32,106 bases of DNA from a virus. The translations under genes and the position numbers were made by a program. Shown here piece after piece: positions 6,485-18,737 of the stretch. The notes below the pieces were generated by a model. It had not been told where the DNA came from and searched no databases. It was given only the letters and a program-made list of their open reading frames with translations. The stretch covers positions 1-32,106 of IMG/VR virus record IMGVR_UViG_3300033978_000234; one strand, written 5' to 3'. Numbering within the stretch: position 1 is the first letter of the stretch; the number at the start of each line of letters is the position of its first letter.

Positions 6485-6787
6485 TCACGTCAGATCGTCA
6501 GGGTCGAAGGCCTTGGGTCTCATGACACGCAGGCGTCTGGCGTCGACTTCGGCACGCCGTTGGGCGATCTGCTCGGGCGACGGATCCACAGCAGGGCCGC
6601 GACGTCCACCGCGCCCACGACCACGCCGCAGGTCTCGCACCTGGTCCTCGAGCCGTGCGGCCAGCACGAACACCGTCACACCTGCAAGGAACGCAGCCTC
6701 TCGGCACGTGGCGCCTCGGGCGTACGCATCGCGCACCACACACTCCTGCTCGCCGGTCAGCCATTTCTTCACCCCCTTGGCAGGCAT
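6485..6787 (-). CDS. Helix-turn-helix phage protein (100 aa)
   Basis: The start at 6787 is shared with the RusA stop as TAATG; the longer upstream frame would run through RusA. Residues about 10-45 (LTGEQECVVRDAYARG, then REAAFLAG) form an HTH resembling resolvase/sigma-like domains. A basic Gly/Arg stretch (about residues 51-60) and an acidic C-terminus follow. It probably binds DNA. Its place between RusA and HNH at the end of the early genes makes a late-gene regulator possible, as in lambdoid phages where an antiterminator lies next to the RusA-type resolvase. No activity can be assigned. Confidence 0.75.
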   Translation of the reverse strand: MPAKGVKKWLTGEQECVVRDAYARGATCREAAFLAGVTVFVLAARLEDQVRDLRRGRGRGGRRGPAVDPSPEQIAQRRAEVDARRLRVMRPKAFDPDDLT

Positions 6788-7401: not shown

Positions 7402-7691
7402 TTCAGTCTCTCCAGCATCGAGCGAAGCGTGGGGGCGTGTGGGCCTCCGACGAACTCCGCGTACCACTCGATCGCGTTTCGCTCATCGTCGGTCAACCGC
7501 ACCGTTTCGCAGCCCTTTACGGCACCATCTCGCAGCCGCTTAACCTCGGCGCACAGCCGATCGATCACGTTGGAACGCACCTTGTCGCGCCACTGGAGAA
7601 CCTCGATCAGCGCGGCCGAGTCTTCGCACAGCGCGTCGCCGGCCTTGGTGCTGTAGGCCCTGTCTCGCAGCCTGTCGACGATATTGCTCAC
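7398..7691 (-). CDS. Conserved phage hypothetical protein (97 aa)
   Basis: The N-terminal MSNIVDRLRDRAY...LCEDSAALIEVL and VKRLRDGA segments resemble the short helical 'ERLR / AADEIERLR' proteins found in many phage early regions. The C-terminus (DDERNAIEWYAEFVGGPHAPTL) is also helical. No catalytic motif is present. It is coupled by ATGA overlaps to the LexA-type HTH upstream (7688) and the membrane protein downstream (7401). Function unknown. Confidence 0.75.
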   Translation of the reverse strand: MSNIVDRLRDRAYSTKAGDALCEDSAALIEVLQWRDKVRSNVIDRLCAEVKRLRDGAVKGCETVRLTDDERNAIEWYAEFVGGPHAPTLRSMLERLK

Positions 7692-7936
7692 GTGGCAGCC
7701 TCCTGTGGCATCTCCTCGAGCTGCTCGACGCCGGAGGGCGTGACACGCAGTGTCCGTGCCATGCCCGGCTGGCGTGTCACGAGCCCATCACGCTCCATCC
7801 GCTCCAGGTGCTGGTGGACGTTAGCCGTGGTCTTCCAGCCGAAGGCACGGCTGATCTCGCGAACCGTGGGCGGGAAGCCACGGGCGACGATCCAGTCGAC
7901 GACGAAACGGAGAATCTTGGCCTGTGGTCCTGTCAC
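7688..7936 (-). CDS. LexA-type winged-helix protein lacking the peptidase domain (82 aa)
   Basis: The whole protein matches the LexA N-terminal DNA-binding domain: ILRFVVDWIVARGFPPTVREI, then AFGW and VHQHLERMERDGLVTRQPGMARTL. The C-terminal autocleavage (S24) domain is absent, and the protein ends in an acidic tail after residue about 70. It therefore cannot be inactivated by RecA-stimulated self-cleavage. It may act as a phage transcription regulator or compete for LexA sites. It is coupled by ATGA overlaps on both sides. Confidence 0.88.
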   Translation of the reverse strand: MTGPQAKILRFVVDWIVARGFPPTVREISRAFGWKTTANVHQHLERMERDGLVTRQPGMARTLRVTPSGVEQLEEMPQEAAT

Positions 7937-8781
7937 TGCGCGACCTCCTGTCGTAGTTGCTCGACCATGCGACGTCTTGTCGCCTCAAACCGCGCCGCGT
8001 CGTCGCCGGTGAATCCCTGCGCCGGTGGCTTGTCGTCCGGCCCGCGGTAGCCTCCAGCCGGTCGCTGTTCGCGTGGATTGTCGAACTGGCCGCCGAGCAC
8101 CCGGTCGACGAAGCCAGCCGCCACGAGCTGCGGCAGGGTCACGGGGTCGCGGAAGTATTTGCACCTCGGCAGGGCCTCAATGGCCGCCAGTGCCTTCTCA
8201 AACCATCCCTCCTCGGCCAGGCGGTCTGCGACCTTGTCCGGGGCGTTTGGCAGCTTCCACGGGCGTCCTGTGCCCGCTGCCCACGCCTTGCGGAGCGTGT
8301 CCCAGCCTGCCGGCTGCCCCGGTCCTTGCGCAGCACTTCCCGGGGAAGAAGAAGAATTTCTATCTCCTCTATCTCTTCTCTCTGGTGCGCCACGCGCCGG
8401 TGGTGAGTGCGCCGAAGCGCACGGGGTAGTGCGCTGACGCGCACCATCGGCCCGGACAGCGTGCAAAGCCCGTGATTTAGCGGATTTACTGAACCGACGC
8501 TCCCATCCGGGGATCGCCACAGTTCCGTTGTCCGCATCGATCACGAGCCAGCCCACTTTCTCGACCTCCTGCCAAAACGCCTCGTCGCCGCCGCAGATCC
8601 GGCCGAGCAGCCTAACCGACATCCGGGCCGTCCCGTCGGAGCTGTTGAGCGAGGCCCAGCCCCACAGCATCAGGAGACGGCCGACGACCTGGTCGACCGG
8701 CAGCCCGGTTGCCTCGACGAGCTCGAGCACCTCCGGCTTCTGGGGTAGGCAGACGTCGTATGGGATCCATTCACCGGCCAT
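7933..8781 (-). CDS. Putative replication initiator / replisome organizer (282 aa)
   Basis: Residues about 1-105 (MAGEWIPYDVCLPQKPEVLEL, GRLLMLWGWASLNSSDGTARM, VGWLVIDADNGTVAIPGWERRF) look like the winged-helix N-terminal domain of phage replication organizers. A disordered Arg/Ser/Pro-rich linker (about 110-160) and a C-terminal helical domain (about 160-240, WDTLRKAWAAG to LPQLVAAGFVDRVL) follow. The start at 8781 is preferred over 8799 because AAAGGAGG lies just upstream. The linker-coding DNA contains three 22-bp iterons and an AT-rich tract, as in lambda O where the origin lies within the initiator gene. No helicase, primase or polymerase is visible, so host enzymes would be recruited. 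Assignment rests on pattern and context. Confidence 0.7.
   Translation of the reverse strand: MAGEWIPYDVCLPQKPEVLELVEATGLPVDQVVGRLLMLWGWASLNSSDGTARMSVRLLGRICGGDEAFWQEVEKVGWLVIDADNGTVAIPGWERRFSKSAKSRALHAVRADGARQRTTPCASAHSPPARGAPERRDRGDRNSSSSPGSAAQGPGQPAGWDTLRKAWAAGTGRPWKLPNAPDKVADRLAEEGWFEKALAAIEALPRCKYFRDPVTLPQLVAAGFVDRVLGGQFDNPREQRPAGGYRGPDDKPPAQGFTGDDAARFEATRRRMVEQLRQEVAQ
8346..8383. other. AT-rich purine/pyrimidine tract beside iterons (possible DNA-unwinding element)
   Basis: About 38 bp with 13 G/C bases, inside a gene and genome of about two thirds GC. On the plus strand it switches from an all-purine run (AAGAAGAAGAA) to a nearly all-pyrimidine run of about 27 bases. It encodes the RDRGDRNSSSS part of the initiator linker. 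Its place directly next to three iterons is the classical arrangement of an origin melting region. This reading is inference. Confidence 0.45.
8385..8450. repeat. Three tandem 22-bp iterons inside the initiator gene (candidate origin)
   Basis: GTGCGC begins at 8385, 8407 and 8429, spaced exactly 22 bp apart. Units two and three are inverted repeats, GTGCGC-N4-GCGCAC. Unit one is diverged, with a 3-base spacer and only GCGC in the second arm. A 22-bp period is not a multiple of three, so it cannot come from repeated amino acids and points to selection on DNA. It is close to two helical turns, so bound proteins would line up on one face. Confidence 0.65.
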
Positions 8782-9087: not shown

Positions 9088-10422
9088 CTAGTAGTTATTC
9101 GTGTAGTAAGAAGGGACGCCTTTGGCTCGTTTTTCGGAATCAGCCTCTAATAGTTTCCTGTTTGCTTCGTTAACCCGCCTTCGCTGTACTGCGTCAGTGT
9201 CTCGCGGCTTGCCGCCAAACCATCTAGACGAAGTGATCTCACGGCGCGCAACAACTTGCAGCCTTTCCTGCGCATCGATCACAAGCGGTGTGCCGCGGCT
9301 TTGAGCAACAGACTTAGCGTCAAGTGGTGCAGTGACGCGGGCCTGCTCTGCAATTTGACGCAGCTCGGCAATCTCGTCGGCGGACGCCGAGTGCCGCTGA
9401 TTTATTCGTGAAAGAACTTCTTCCGCTGATGCATGAGCAGGAATCGACGGTGACGCTCGTGGCGAAAGTCTGTTTTTTCTTCCTACAAATGTGCTTGCAT
9501 CCTCTAGGTCTCGTATCAACTGCCTAACCATTTCGAGGACGTACTCGCGGTCGCCGTTCCATGTCATAGAAAAATGCCCACGGAACCGAAACGTGGCATC
9601 AAACCAAGTCTTGCGGTCAATGTTCAGCCGTCTGTTTTCGGTCACAACGTGCGCATTACGCACCTTCATTTTCACCATAAGATGCTTCATGCCGTCGTCT
9701 GCCGTAGCTGCCTTTGATAGCGCGTGGGAGTCGTCGAGCAGCTGCCACCTGTCGCCCCCTGCGCACCTCCAGATGAGGCCAAGATAAAACGCGAACAGAC
9801 ACTCTTCGCCGGCCGACAGAAACACATCCATCACCCTCGGCCTGAACAAGCCCTCGACCACCACGGTCCCGCTTGTTGAGAAGGACGAAATGCAGATCCG
9901 CTCGGAGCCGAACTTAGAGCAGAGGCCTGCCGCAGCCGAGTCAAGTATCCACCAGCAAGTTGTCCCGCCCGCAGACGTGTGCGCAATTTTTGGTCTATAT
10001 CTATCGATGCCGCTGCAAACCACCTCGGCCACGACCGCAGACTCTTTGTGGATCGCGTCCCATATGTAGCCGGATTGACTGTCGGCGATCTCGCAGTCGA
10101 AGCCAACGCTGTGCAGCCCCCGTTTTATGCACAGGTGCGCTGGCGTTTCGCGGCCGGTCGGACAATTGCCTCTTGATGAAGCGTGTGCAAAAAATGGCGT
10201 GCCATTCCTGCCGACGTAATGCCTCATTTGCCCTTTACATTTTGGGCAGCGAAATCCGCTTTCGTACCGATCGCGTCCCGCAACCCGAACCTCGTCAGCA
10301 GTGACTAGCTCGCCAGACTGTACTGCCAGCGCAAACGGGTTAGTTCTTTGCTTGGCTCTGTCGCCATCCGCAAGCGAATCCAGTCTGTCCAGAATGCTTG
10401 CATCGTCCGCAATCGCTTCCAT
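9088..10422 (-). CDS. CoiA-like competence/nuclease family protein (444 aa)
   Basis: Residues about 57-105 carry the CoiA N-terminal pattern: FRCPKC zinc knuckle (C59, C62), FFAHAS (H80), NCPTG (C87) and HLCIKRGL (H96, K100). Then WDA (D122) and AEVV (E133) follow, as in the PD-(D/E)xK nuclease core of CoiA. The roughly 300-residue C-terminus is unrecognised. CoiA acts on incoming DNA in competent bacteria; in a phage such a protein could process DNA or act against competing DNA. The start at 10422 is favoured by GGAGG eight bases upstream and a TGATG overlap with the previous gene. Visibly lower GC and many A/T-ending codons mark it as a likely recent insert. Confidence 0.7.
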   Translation of the reverse strand: MEAIADDASILDRLDSLADGDRAKQRTNPFALAVQSGELVTADEVRVAGRDRYESGFRCPKCKGQMRHYVGRNGTPFFAHASSRGNCPTGRETPAHLCIKRGLHSVGFDCEIADSQSGYIWDAIHKESAVVAEVVCSGIDRYRPKIAHTSAGGTTCWWILDSAAAGLCSKFGSERICISSFSTSGTVVVEGLFRPRVMDVFLSAGEECLFAFYLGLIWRCAGGDRWQLLDDSHALSKAATADDGMKHLMVKMKVRNAHVVTENRRLNIDRKTWFDATFRFRGHFSMTWNGDREYVLEMVRQLIRDLEDASTFVGRKNRLSPRASPSIPAHASAEEVLSRINQRHSASADEIAELRQIAEQARVTAPLDAKSVAQSRGTPLVIDAQERLQVVARREITSSRWFGGKPRDTDAVQRRRVNEANRKLLEADSEKRAKGVPSYYTNNY

Positions 10423-10742
10423 CACGCACACCTCCATTCCCTCTCGCCCCTACCGCTCGAGCTCGTCACCGTCCTGCCCGTCTCAACGATCCTGCCAGCC
10501 TTGGCCAGCTCGGCGATCCGCTTGCCGATCTGGTGCGGCAGCAGCCCGCACCGTGCCGCGATCCCGCTAGCCCCGGCCGGGCCTTCCAGCAGTGCCGCGA
10601 GGATCTGCCGCTGGTGCCGTGTCGCCAGCCCGCCGGCCTGTGCTGCCGCCGCGTGACTGGTGTCCGGGTCTGACGACCTGGCGGCGCCGAACAGCGGCAG
10701 CCCCTCTTCGATCGGTGGCGTGATGTAGTGCGGTCGGTTCAT
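10422..10742 (-). CDS. Winged-helix DNA-binding phage protein (106 aa)
   Basis: The N-terminal SSDPDTSHAAAAQA is a short motif common to many phage proteins and is followed by a winged helix: TRHQRQILAALLEGP, GIAARCGLLPHQIGKRIAELAKAGRI and a basic wing ending GEREWR. The start at 10742 overlaps the stop of the preceding 49-aa HTH gene as ATGA; the longer open frame upstream is a shadow. It is likely a transcriptional or replication accessory protein. No ligand or catalytic site is visible. Confidence 0.82.
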   Translation of the reverse strand: MNRPHYITPPIEEGLPLFGAARSSDPDTSHAAAAQAGGLATRHQRQILAALLEGPAGASGIAARCGLLPHQIGKRIAELAKAGRIVETGRTVTSSSGRGEREWRCA

Positions 10743-11666: not shown

Positions 11667-11920
11667 GAGTGACCCTCCTGCCAGCGTTGGGCCTGTGCCG
11701 TGATCCTCGCCACGATGTCAACCAGCTGCGGTGCAGCCGCGCGGTACGCAGCCTCTGCGGTGTCGTGCCAGTCAATGCCGGCTGGCTGGAGCGAACCGCC
11801 TGGACGACGTGCGTACCGCTGCCCATCGACCAAGATCGCATCGCCGTGGTCCAGGTAGCCGACCACGCCGCTCTCGTTCACCTCACGGAACACGCTGACC
11901 CGATAGACGTGCCCACTCAT
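11663..11920 (-). CDS. Hypothetical protein (85 aa)
   Basis: The start at 11920 is set by GGAGG nine bases upstream and the ATGA overlap with the SSB-like gene; a longer open frame upstream is a shadow. The first half is β-rich (YRVSVFREVNESGVVGYLDHGDAILVDGQRYARR) and the second is helical (AEAAYRAAAPQLVDIVARI). No motif recognised. It lies in the recombination block but shows no sign of enzymatic activity. Confidence 0.68.
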   Translation of the reverse strand: MSGHVYRVSVFREVNESGVVGYLDHGDAILVDGQRYARRPGGSLQPAGIDWHDTAEAAYRAAAPQLVDIVARITAQAQRWQEGHS

Positions 11921-12510
11921 GCAGCACCTCCGATCAGGGCCACCAGCAGCGGAGCCAGCCACAGGAACGGGATGTCGTCGCTGCCGATCCCCGGTGCCGT
12001 CGCCTTGACCTTTGCGGCAGGCGTCCTCGGCGGCTTCCTCGCCACCTCGGCGGCCTCCGAGGCCAACTGCTGGATGGGCATGAACTTCCACACGTTGACG
12101 AACGTGCGGCCGTTGGTGCCGACCCGGTGGCGGATCTCGGCCACCACGCGCCGGCCTGTCAGGTCGTCCATCTGCGTTTCCGACCACTCCTGAGCGGAAA
12201 GCGCCAGAGCCCCAGCCAGCTGGGCCACCAGCACCCGCGCCCAGCCTTCACCCTTCTTCATGGTCACCTTGACCCACCAGAACTTGCGATCCTCGTGCGC
12301 GAGCTCGAGCACGAGCTGCGTGGTGTCTTCAGACACCGTTTTGATCTTGAGCTCGTGGATGCCCTCGGGCAGGTCCATCCGCTCGGTGCTTTCCGGTGCC
12401 GCTTGCTGCGGCTGATCTACCGAGATGTCCCAATCCATTGCTGTCGCTGTCCTTTCCTGTGTTGGTTGCTTCTTCCGTTTCATCGCCGTCCAAGAGTCAT
12501 GCCACGCCAT
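11917..12510 (-). CDS. SSB-like (DUF669-type) protein with DDIPF motif and hydrophobic tail (197 aa)
   Basis: The core (residues about 44-145: LPEGIHELKIKTVS, WWVKVTMKKGEG, DLTGRRVVAEIRHRV, FVNVWKFMP) resembles phage OB-like ssDNA-binding proteins of the DUF669 type. A Pro/Lys linker leads to SDDIPF (178-182), the SSB C-terminal tip used to recruit partners. It is not terminal here: a 14-residue hydrophobic stretch (LWLAPLLVALIGGA) follows before the stop. The start is uncertain: ATG 12510 has GGAGG upstream, while ATG 12438 (MDWDIS) has AAAGGA and would give 173 aa. The annealing-like protein precedes it and overlaps 14 bp. Confidence 0.72.
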   Translation of the reverse strand: MAWHDSWTAMKRKKQPTQERTATAMDWDISVDQPQQAAPESTERMDLPEGIHELKIKTVSEDTTQLVLELAHEDRKFWWVKVTMKKGEGWARVLVAQLAGALALSAQEWSETQMDDLTGRRVVAEIRHRVGTNGRTFVNVWKFMPIQQLASEAAEVARKPPRTPAAKVKATAPGIGSDDIPFLWLAPLLVALIGGAA

Positions 12511-14364: not shown

Positions 14365-15255
14365 ATGCTTTTGCGAGATCTTTTGGGTCGGTATGCGTTG
14401 CTGATGGGCCTGTCGGATCGGTCGGTGGTGCTGTACGCCCACTCGATCGCAAAGTTTGAGCAATTCCTGAAGCGTCCGGCCGACGTTGCCGACCTCGAGG
14501 ACGTGACGGTCGCCCAGTTCCTGAAGTGGCGGGCCACGAACCGCAGGGCGGGCAGGCCGATCAGCGTTCACTCGGTCAACAAGGACCGCTCGCAGCTCCT
14601 GGCGTTGTGGAACTGGTCGTGCCGCAAAAAAATCCACCCGGGCGAATGGCCGGGCCTGCCACGACAGAAGAAGATCAGGAAGACACCCACGGCGTATACG
14701 CTCGACGACATGACCAAGCTGGTCCGAGCAGCTCGTCGCCGGCGGGGCCGTATGGGCGACACGCCGTCGGCCTGGTGGTGGTCGACGTGCCTTCAGGCCC
14801 TGTGGCAGACCGGTGAGCGCTGCGGCGCCCTGCTGGCCGTCCGCTGGGAAGACTTTGACTCCAGGGGCTGCCGGATGACGTTCAGGGCAGAGACCCGCAA
14901 AGGCGGGCTGTCTGACGCTGTGCGGTCGATCACGCCCGAGCTGGCGTCAGAGATCGATCAGCACAGGAAGGCCCCTGGCGGGCTCGTGTGGGCTCGATAC
15001 GGGCACAGGCTGTCGATCTACCCTTCACTGCGGATCCTGTGCAGGATCGCCGGCGTCACGCCCCGCGGGTTCCACGGCATCCGAAGGGCATCGGCGAGCT
15101 ATGTGGCAGCCGGTGGCGGGGACGCGACGGCCCACCTGGGCCATGCCGACCCAGCGATGACCCGCGGGCACTATTTGGACCCGAGGATCACAGAGACGCG
15201 GAAGGGTCTCGATTATTTGCCGACGCTCGACCTTGCTGATCCTCCCGCTTCTTGA
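14365..15255 (+). CDS. int: Tyrosine recombinase (phage integrase, 296 aa)
   Basis: This is the only plus-strand gene. The N-terminal core-binding domain (about 1-95, LSDRSVVLYAHSIAKFEQFL) precedes a catalytic domain with a full active set: TGERCGALLAVRWED (R152), ETRKG (K179), FHGIRR (H237, R240), HLGHA (H260) and TRGHYLDP (nucleophile Y270). No arm-binding domain is obvious, so it is a simple integrase. GGAGAGG lies seven bases before ATG 14365. The 3' end overlaps the convergent nucleotide-modification-like gene by 68 bp. Its presence makes the phage temperate. Confidence 0.96.
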   Translation: MLLRDLLGRYALLMGLSDRSVVLYAHSIAKFEQFLKRPADVADLEDVTVAQFLKWRATNRRAGRPISVHSVNKDRSQLLALWNWSCRKKIHPGEWPGLPRQKKIRKTPTAYTLDDMTKLVRAARRRRGRMGDTPSAWWWSTCLQALWQTGERCGALLAVRWEDFDSRGCRMTFRAETRKGGLSDAVRSITPELASEIDQHRKAPGGLVWARYGHRLSIYPSLRILCRIAGVTPRGFHGIRRASASYVAAGGGDATAHLGHADPAMTRGHYLDPRITETRKGLDYLPTLDLADPPAS

Positions 15256-16937: not shown

Positions 16938-17109
16938 CGGTCGTCTCCTGTTGCACCCACACGCAGTTAACCTCGTCGAGCGTCCAGCCTGGGCCGGGGC
17001 ATGGCGGGATCGGCGACTGATTTTTCCCGATCACAGTGCCGCTCTCGTCGCGGACCTCCCATGTGTGCAGACCGTCGATCACGCCGAGATAGGTGATGGT
17101 GACGGTCAT
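16924..17109 (-). CDS. Small hypothetical tail-region protein (61 aa)
   Basis: A β-strand start (MTVTITYLGVIDGLHTWEVRD) is followed by a Pro/Cys-containing loop (PIPPCPGPGWTL) and NCVWVQQ. The start overlaps the end of the fibre gene (17106) and the stop overlaps the 104-aa gene start by 14 bp. It is probably a small virion or assembly accessory of the fibre. No family recognised. Confidence 0.65.
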   Translation of the reverse strand: MTVTITYLGVIDGLHTWEVRDESGTVIGKNQSPIPPCPGPGWTLDEVNCVWVQQETTDANL

Positions 17110-18737
17110 GACAGCCTCGCCCAGTACGCATGCCCAACGGATCCGTTGTATTGTCCAGAACCCTGTGTTGTCAGGATCTCATTGGCACCAGTGCGGACTC
17201 CTTGCACGCGAGGCGACAGGGCAGAGATCACGTGTGGGATAAGCGCACCAGAGACCGATCCCGTATTGGTGGCAGCGATGCACAGTGCCACAGCGTACCG
17301 AGTTCCTGCGTTGAGCGTATAAGACGATGGGTATCCGCCAGTGGAGCTATCGAGCGACCGAGTAAACACCGAGTTGCTGCTGTTGAAAATTGTCGTATCG
17401 CTCGCCGTGCGAGCCACCAGCGTGGCATTGCCAGATGCGTCTGCGGTGTACAGGCCGTAGCGGCAGAGCGTCACGCCTGACGCTGCGGTGGTACAGGCAA
17501 ATGCAATCTGCGTTATGGTGAGCGTGTAAGCCGGCGTAAAAAAGGTCAAATAAATTGCGTTGTTAACCGGCACCGCAGTTGTATTGATAAAGTTGCGGTC
17601 TACTGCGTCGATGAACGATGTAGCCTGGTGCTGCCTTGCCGCTAGAGCAGAAGCGAAAAGTACGTTGCCGCTTAACCTCGCATCCGGCAGCGTCCCGCTC
17701 GTCAGATCAGACGCAGATGTCGTGGCTATCCCGCCACCAGAAGTTCCGACCTCCACGTAGACGGGCGACTCCCACTGGTAGAGCCGCGAGGTGTCCTCGG
17801 CGAGGTACAGTGCGGTCGATGAACCGGTCGCGGGGAAGTCGCTGATAGACGCATAGACCAGCGAGGCTTGGGGGCCTTGCGGCCCGGTTGCACCGGCAAC
17901 GCCCTGGCTGCCGGTGTCACCCTTTGGAAGGACCAGGTTAAGCGTTTGGCTGGGCGAGGCTCCGGTGATCGTTGCAGCGGCAGTCGCGCCACTGCTGACC
18001 GTGCCGATCGACAGTGTGTTCGCAGGCCCAGCCGGGCCGGTACTTCCGGCCACACCTTGGATGCCTTGGCTGCCCGTCGCGCCAGCGGCCCCAGATGGTC
18101 CCGTGTTTCCGCGTGGCAGCACTAGGTTCAGTACCTGGCTCGGCGCTGTTCCGGTGATCGTCGCCCCGACCTCACCTTCACTGACAGTGCCTATCGAAAG
18201 GCTATTCGCAGGCCCGGCCGGGCCGGTGCTGCCGGCCACGCCCTGAGCGCCTTGGCTGCCAGTCGCGCCGGCGGCGCCCGCGCTTCCCGTGTCACCCTTT
18301 GGCAAAACGAGCGACAGCACCTGGCTGGGAGACGACCCGGTAATCGTGGCCGACGCAGACGGGCCGCTGGTGACCGTGCCGATGGTGAGCGTGTTTGCCG
18401 GGCCGGCCGCTCCGGCGCTGCCGGTCGCGCCAGCCTCCCCCTGTGGCCCTGTGCTGCCCGTGTCACCCTTCGGCAGCACGAGGTTCAGCACCTGGCTGGG
18501 GGCAGCGCCAGTCAGCGTCGCAGATGCCGAGGTGCCGCCCACCACCGTCCCGATCGATAGCGTGTTCGCTGGCCCTGTGGCCCCCGCTGCGCCGACAGGC
18601 CCGGCGACGCCTTGCGGGCCGACGCCGCCGCTCGCCGACACGGACGAGCTCGAGCTCGTGACGGTCGCCGACACCGAGGCGCCGCTGGCGGTCACCTTGA
18701 TCGGCTGCGATGTGACTGTCGCGGTGACGCTGCTCAC
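17106..18737 (-). CDS. Collagen-like tail fibre protein (543 aa)
   Basis: After a Ser/Thr/Val-rich N-terminus (about 1-35) there are four copies of a roughly 60-residue unit. Each has collagen-like GPxGxxG runs and a spacer containing GPANTLSIGTV, an ATITG-type segment, PSQVLNLVLPKGDTG. A β-module (LVYASISDFPATG, LYLAEDTSRLYQWES, YVEVGTS) and a roughly 200-residue C-terminal receptor-binding-like β-domain follow. GTG 18737 is the start, with GGAGGGAG before it and a GTGA overlap with the preceding gene. It is expected to form a trimeric adsorption fibre. Its C-terminal fold is not recognised. Confidence 0.85.
   Translation of the reverse strand: MSSVTATVTSQPIKVTASGASVSATVTSSSSSVSASGGVGPQGVAGPVGAAGATGPANTLSIGTVVGGTSASATLTGAAPSQVLNLVLPKGDTGSTGPQGEAGATGSAGAAGPANTLTIGTVTSGPSASATITGSSPSQVLSLVLPKGDTGSAGAAGATGSQGAQGVAGSTGPAGPANSLSIGTVSEGEVGATITGTAPSQVLNLVLPRGNTGPSGAAGATGSQGIQGVAGSTGPAGPANTLSIGTVSSGATAAATITGASPSQTLNLVLPKGDTGSQGVAGATGPQGPQASLVYASISDFPATGSSTALYLAEDTSRLYQWESPVYVEVGTSGGGIATTSASDLTSGTLPDARLSGNVLFASALAARQHQATSFIDAVDRNFINTTAVPVNNAIYLTFFTPAYTLTITQIAFACTTAASGVTLCRYGLYTADASGNATLVARTASDTTIFNSSNSVFTRSLDSSTGGYPSSYTLNAGTRYAVALCIAATNTGSVSGALIPHVISALSPRVQGVRTGANEILTTQGSGQYNGSVGHAYWARLS

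Follow-up and report, generated by a model that had tools for sequence, protein, structure and literature searches.

Phage lambda carries its replication origin in the middle of gene O, between the regions encoding the DNA-binding N-terminal part and the partner-binding C-terminal part of the initiator, and the iterons of ori-lambda are imperfect dyads that adjoin an AT-rich tract (PMC7466680; PMC6022878). Four iterons are annotated in the lambda record, from codon 117 onwards. Furth and Yates reportedly described, in 1978, type-specific O proteins in hybrids of lambda, phi80 and 82, a precedent for the matching of initiators and origins. Among plasmids, the staphylococcal RepA_N-type initiators are winged-helix proteins that bind iterons. 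The Rac prophage also carries an active origin, oriJ (PMC3945230). Origins of the lambda kind are known; what appears to be new here is an initiator family, a swappable cassette and an apparent residue code, none of which we found described in a search of the (mainly open-access) literature that recovered the lambda and Stx origins.

A candidate origin inside the rep gene

The window, i.e., the whole stretch of DNA analysed here, is a 32,106-bp IMG/VR record with a GC content of 63.9%. Its ends carry a direct repeat of 127 bp, which fits a circular or complete genome, and an integrase gene (14365-15255, + strand) marks the phage as temperate. A previous sequence-only reading proposed a phage origin within a replication-initiator-like gene. 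The identity of this gene, rep (Table 1), is supported by a match of Rep residues 7-133, the N-terminal part only, to phrog_2509 (annotated as "replication initiation protein", E=2e-23). Our comparative analysis indicates that the iteron array in rep, nested between the DNA-binding and C-terminal domains, is very probably the replication origin of this phage.

Table 1. Features of the rep locus, in window positions.
Feature	Position	Strand	Comment
rep initiator gene, 282 aa	7933..8781	-	ATG at 8781
N-terminal winged-helix domain	8491..8781	-	codons 1-97
Putative recognition-helix codons 102-111	8449..8478	-	K102, R104 and R110 invariant; 107/111 vary with iteron class
Iteron 1	8429..8444		perfect dyad GTGCGC-TGAC-GCGCAC; register kept in 26/26 class A genes
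Iteron 2	8407..8422		perfect dyad GTGCGC-CGAA-GCGCAC
Iteron 3, adjoins tract	8385..8400		degenerate dyad GTGCGCCACGCGCCGG
AT-rich purine/pyrimidine tract, candidate unwinding element	8342..8383		gene strand AGAGAGAAGAGATAGAGGAGATAGAAATTCTTCTTCTTCCCC
C-terminal domain, about residues 157-282	7936..8313	-	conserved block 160-237

In the AlphaFold2 model of Rep residues 1-125 (pTM 0.73), a winged helix precedes a helix at residues 99-118, the latter predicted with moderate confidence (pLDDT of about 70-80). The linker (residues 119-156) was predicted at pLDDT <50, in line with the earlier suggestion that it is disordered, and the C-terminal domain presumably contacts the replication machinery. 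PDB fold matches of the Rep N-domain are generic winged-helix proteins, including plasmid initiators, and are not significant (Z ≤6). The RepA_N structures 5kbj, 4pql and 4pt7 are among these matches (Z ≤5.9) but they tie with unrelated winged-helix regulators and have no sequence match to Rep, and are therefore not evidence of kinship. Searching solved structures by sequence gave no significant match to Rep, and no Pfam family was found over Rep or over the N-domain of the homologues that we scanned.

A position scan located GTGCGC at 8385, 8407 and 8429, i.e., at the 22-bp intervals reported previously, and Tandem Repeats Finder returned 8385-8444 (period 22) as the best-scoring array of the window. 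Iterons 1 and 2 are full inverted repeats, as had been claimed, and are the only mismatch-free copies of GTGCGC-N4-GCGCAC in the whole window. When the codons of rep were shuffled synonymously 20,000 times, two perfect dyads of the same word were obtained in 28 shuffles, five or more half-sites in 76, and at least one dyad in 8,680; these counts set no period requirement and say nothing on the 22-bp spacing. Sequence conservation of the dyads among relatives (see below) is far stronger evidence than the shuffle test. The AT-rich tract beside the iterons is present as described, although its GC content had been given as 34% and the measured value is 35.9% (8346-8384); only 0.13% of 39-bp windows are equally AT-rich.

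The lambda-like layout recognised by the sequence-only reading, with iterons and an AT-rich tract inside an initiator gene, was borne out, and this architecture is common to the rep array, lambda O and its origin, and their Stx-phage relatives. Successive iterons of lambda begin at distances of 20, 24 and 23 bp, against 22 bp in rep. P follows O in lambda, in contrast to the rep family: no homologue of the DnaB or DnaC of PAN70, lambda P, or the P protein of VW-6S was detected in the window or in 80 relatives, suggesting that a host loader or the C-terminal domain may serve instead; a loader unrelated to these proteins is also possible. A comparison of the Rep N-domain with lambda O using hhalign gave a probability of 0.2% (E 0.26), the two proteins have no common PHROG match, and the KxR-x5-R motif of Rep is absent from lambda O. 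The likeness to lambda is one of architecture, without detected N-domain homology.

Other genes of the window were also annotated. An 82-aa protein (7688-7936, - strand) that overlaps the 3' end of rep consists of a LexA DNA-binding domain only, is matched in 21 of 81 sequences (the window and the 80 loci of relatives), and is possibly an SOS-linked regulator. The product of 9088-10437 (- strand, 449 aa) has a below-threshold match to CoiA_N, and a protein resembling it is found upstream of rep in only three of the 81 sequences. Inside this CoiA-like gene are the genome's sole two DnaA-box matches, at 10125 and 10184 (59 bp apart). A weak match to single-strand DNA-binding protein was obtained for 11917-12510 (- strand), and 17106-18737 (- strand) encodes a tail protein with collagen-like adhesin matches.

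Conservation of the array and tract among close relatives

Viral contigs in IMG/VR contain 80 loci encoding Rep proteins at 65-100% identity, and we analysed 72 distinct relatives with a complete start. A dyad array is present in the linker of all 72, as counted with patterns fitted to each word class, the class B pattern being looser. Three classes were distinguished: class A has the word GTGCGC-N4-GCGCAC (26/72 genes), class B has GGGGCGC-N3-GCGCCCC (41/72) and class C has ACGCGC-N3-GCGCGT (5/72). Centre spacing is mostly 22.0 bp in class A (28 intervals) and class B (54 intervals), and 21 or 22 bp in class C. Iterons start at -61, -39 and -17 from the tract in class A and in about half of class B, while in the rest of class B a different beginning of the purine run offsets the starts by 2 bp. 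The iteron 3 position, degenerate in the window, holds a good dyad in 18 of the 26 class A genes. Within each class the arms are near-invariant and the spacers are free. We counted 139 perfect class-specific dyads inside rep and none outside it in approximately 720 kb of flanking phage DNA.

The alignment of homologues that had been proposed as a check of the origin showed conservation of the 22-bp units and the tract against a background of varying linker residues, and every relative that retains the linker also retains the repeats. Each of the three codon phases is represented among the unit starts of classes A and B, in agreement with the earlier argument that a period which is not a codon multiple cannot be explained by protein repetition. 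A DNA-level search of known phages found no match, and a first scan of genome contigs with the close family found none either.

Nearly every relative uses rare, AT-rich synonymous codons in the tract. Arginine is encoded by AGA at two positions in 72/72 genes (0.9% of arginines outside the linker of the same genes), serine by TCT at two positions in 72/72 (6% elsewhere), and asparagine by AAT in 55/55 (14% elsewhere). The TTCTTCTTC part of the tract is in the same reading frame in 78/78 genes, so frame alone cannot separate protein constraint from DNA constraint; it is codon choice that separates them. This usage indicates selection on the tract that goes beyond the protein and acts on the DNA, or at the least on which codons are used. 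When IMG/VR was scanned with a pattern for the tract, 95 stretches were returned; among the loci examined, all but four encode rep-family genes. The matches in L190, L191, L222 and L229 are without a rep gene and are unrelated.

Residues 107 and 111 and an exchangeable cassette

Residues 107 and 111, located one turn apart on the predicted helix, together identify the word class in 72/72 genes (MI/H(class)=1.00). The remaining fully diagnostic columns are in the linker stretch encoded by the iterons or their surroundings. Mean normalised mutual information reaches 0.48 across residues 104-117 and is 0.07 in both residues 1-100 and the C-domain. Neither the change of word with residues 107 and 111 nor the codon bias of the tract featured in the sequence-only reading.

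Word class changes 10 times on the N-domain tree and 16 times on the C-domain tree, which are quick maximum-likelihood trees of flanking-domain DNA with few well-supported branches; the class A changes that are forced by well-supported branches number at least five and at least eight, respectively. Related pairs of unlike class are 23-57% identical in the helix and iteron segment and highly identical across most of both flanks, and their identity recovers at the tract. Because of the repeated class changes on the flanking-domain trees, these comparisons indicate joint transfer of the helix and the iterons, in a cassette of roughly 110 bp. As the helix adjoins the iterons, co-inheritance of the block explains part of the association between residues and words, and the 107/111 association alone is not proof of contact.

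Homologues in other phages and bacterial genomes

Searching named phages using tblastn identified N-domain homologues including YdaU of Rac and proteins of Pseudomonas and Xanthomonas phages. Several of these distant homologues adjoin DnaC-, DnaB- or P-like genes, one has a DnaT domain, and in several phages they are annotated as replication protein O, primosomal protein I or replication initiation protein. A second genome scan identified 50 loci in Pseudomonas, other Proteobacteria, Planctomycetes, Verrucomicrobia and others. One genome, that of Planctomycetes bacterium TBK1r, has two distant-homologue copies (L357 and L358) approximately 44 kb apart. All of 30 diverse homologues have K102, R104 and R110, as does Rep.

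The members of phrog_2509 and phrog_9474 (Rac YdaU, Pseudomonas phiPSA1 and VW-6S, and Xanthomonas CP2) share with Rep the homologous N-domain, these three invariant residues, and intragenic half-sites with a GA-rich tract. They differ from Rep in their words (GTAACG, GTCCGC, CGTGAC or GTCTAC) and in their C-domains, and several have an adjoining helicase-loader gene. The distant homologues from the genome scan likewise have half-sites of other words at the corresponding position, and in most of them a GA-rich run comes next. In homologues with TAACG words the half-sites are often ordered >><< at 11-12 bp.

We compared residues 107/111 with words in 182 linker-distinct genes, using a word list that was picked after inspecting the data. 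T/V occurs with GTAACG in 107/108 genes, mostly close Pseudomonas relatives, H/A with GTGCGC in 24/24, H at 111 with GGGGCG in 33/33, E/N with ACGCGC in 5/5, and D/K with GTCCGC in 4/5 (the fifth, from Vibrio, has GTCACA). Among 77 representatives, pairs with the same residues at 107/111 share a word in 91% of cases at <40% N-domain identity and in 100% above, and pairs that differ at these positions share one in 3-34%; part of the latter is due to the groups AH, SH, TH and GH, which have one common word.

The origin could be real without residues 107 and 111 being readers of the iterons, their association with words reflecting physical linkage only. We consider this unlikely, although in the window the helix codons stop 5 nt from the first iteron, and the block recombines as a unit. 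Residues 98-106 are equally near the iterons yet lack the correspondence with class seen at 107 and 111, VRH and VDK never vary in class B despite lying outside the iterons, and diverged genes with the same residue pair mostly share a word even at the low N-domain identities given above. Residues 107 and 111 thus probably help to read the half-site. The balance of evidence leans towards a self-contained origin-specificity cassette of approximately 110 bp, in which helix and iterons would be swapped as a unit between related phages and a 107/111 code would hold across the family. Under the proposed code, H/A would read GTGCGC; A, S, T or G with H would read GGGGCGC; E/N would read ACGCGC; T/V would read GTAACG; D/K or E/K would mostly read GTCCGC; A/K would read CGTGAC; and K/Q would read GTCTAC.

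Alternative explanations of the array

An operator for control of Rep transcription, or a partition or packaging site, could also resemble this array, since helically spaced dyads suit any DNA-binding protein, and terminase genes are located approximately 2 kb away. We regard such a function in place of an origin as improbable, given that the array is approximately 340 nt inside rep and adjoins a conserved AT-rich tract with codon-level selection, that rep belongs to a replication-initiator family, and that homologues adjoining helicase-loader genes have the same layout. It is very improbable that the dyads are RNA hairpins in the rep mRNA. On the coding strand GTGCGC-TTCG-GCGCAC would form a very stable UUCG hairpin, but arms are fixed within each class with few G-U pairs (1/162 in class A, 12/266 in class B), the loop varies in sequence and length (4 nt in class A, 3 nt in class B) without any change in the 22-bp period, half-sites in TAACG-word homologues are often in >><< order, and no Rfam match was obtained. 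A chance or protein-level repeat in a GC-rich linker is extremely improbable: short dyads are common in GC-rich DNA, as the shuffles show, but the period is not a codon multiple, all three frames are used in classes A and B, and all 72 relatives have dyads in rep, with no perfect class-specific dyad in the flanking DNA analysed.

Cumulative GC skew, another check proposed by the sequence-only reading, did not favour the origin. Its extremes are at 6596 and 13270, and the sign change at the former runs opposite to that expected if replication started at 8.4 kb; for a 32-kb phage whose genes are mostly on one strand, such evidence is unsupportive but weak.

Proposed mechanism and implications

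In the mechanism that we propose, Rep subunits, which are probably dimeric, recognise the dyads through the helix at residues ~99-118 that follows the winged-helix domain. With approximately one helical turn between half-sites, the bound subunits would be expected to stack along a single face of the DNA. Their stacking would put strain on the neighbouring AT-rich purine/pyrimidine tract so that it opens, and the C-terminal domain would then recruit the helicase, allowing replication to start. As the helix and its target are within about 110 bp, a single recombination event changes both, which would give a new origin specificity with the match between initiator and target kept.

These results would extend the lambda-type matching of initiator and origin types to a family rich in natural variants, where specific residues can be proposed as the likely determinants of origin choice and put to the test, and they show how a replicon could switch origin specificity through a single recombination event. 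They also predict, in a form that can be tested, where the origin should lie in many unannotated prophages. Rac of E. coli K-12 is one of these: we infer that its oriJ is the YdaU array and, if true, the proposed code predicts the oriJ site through this array.
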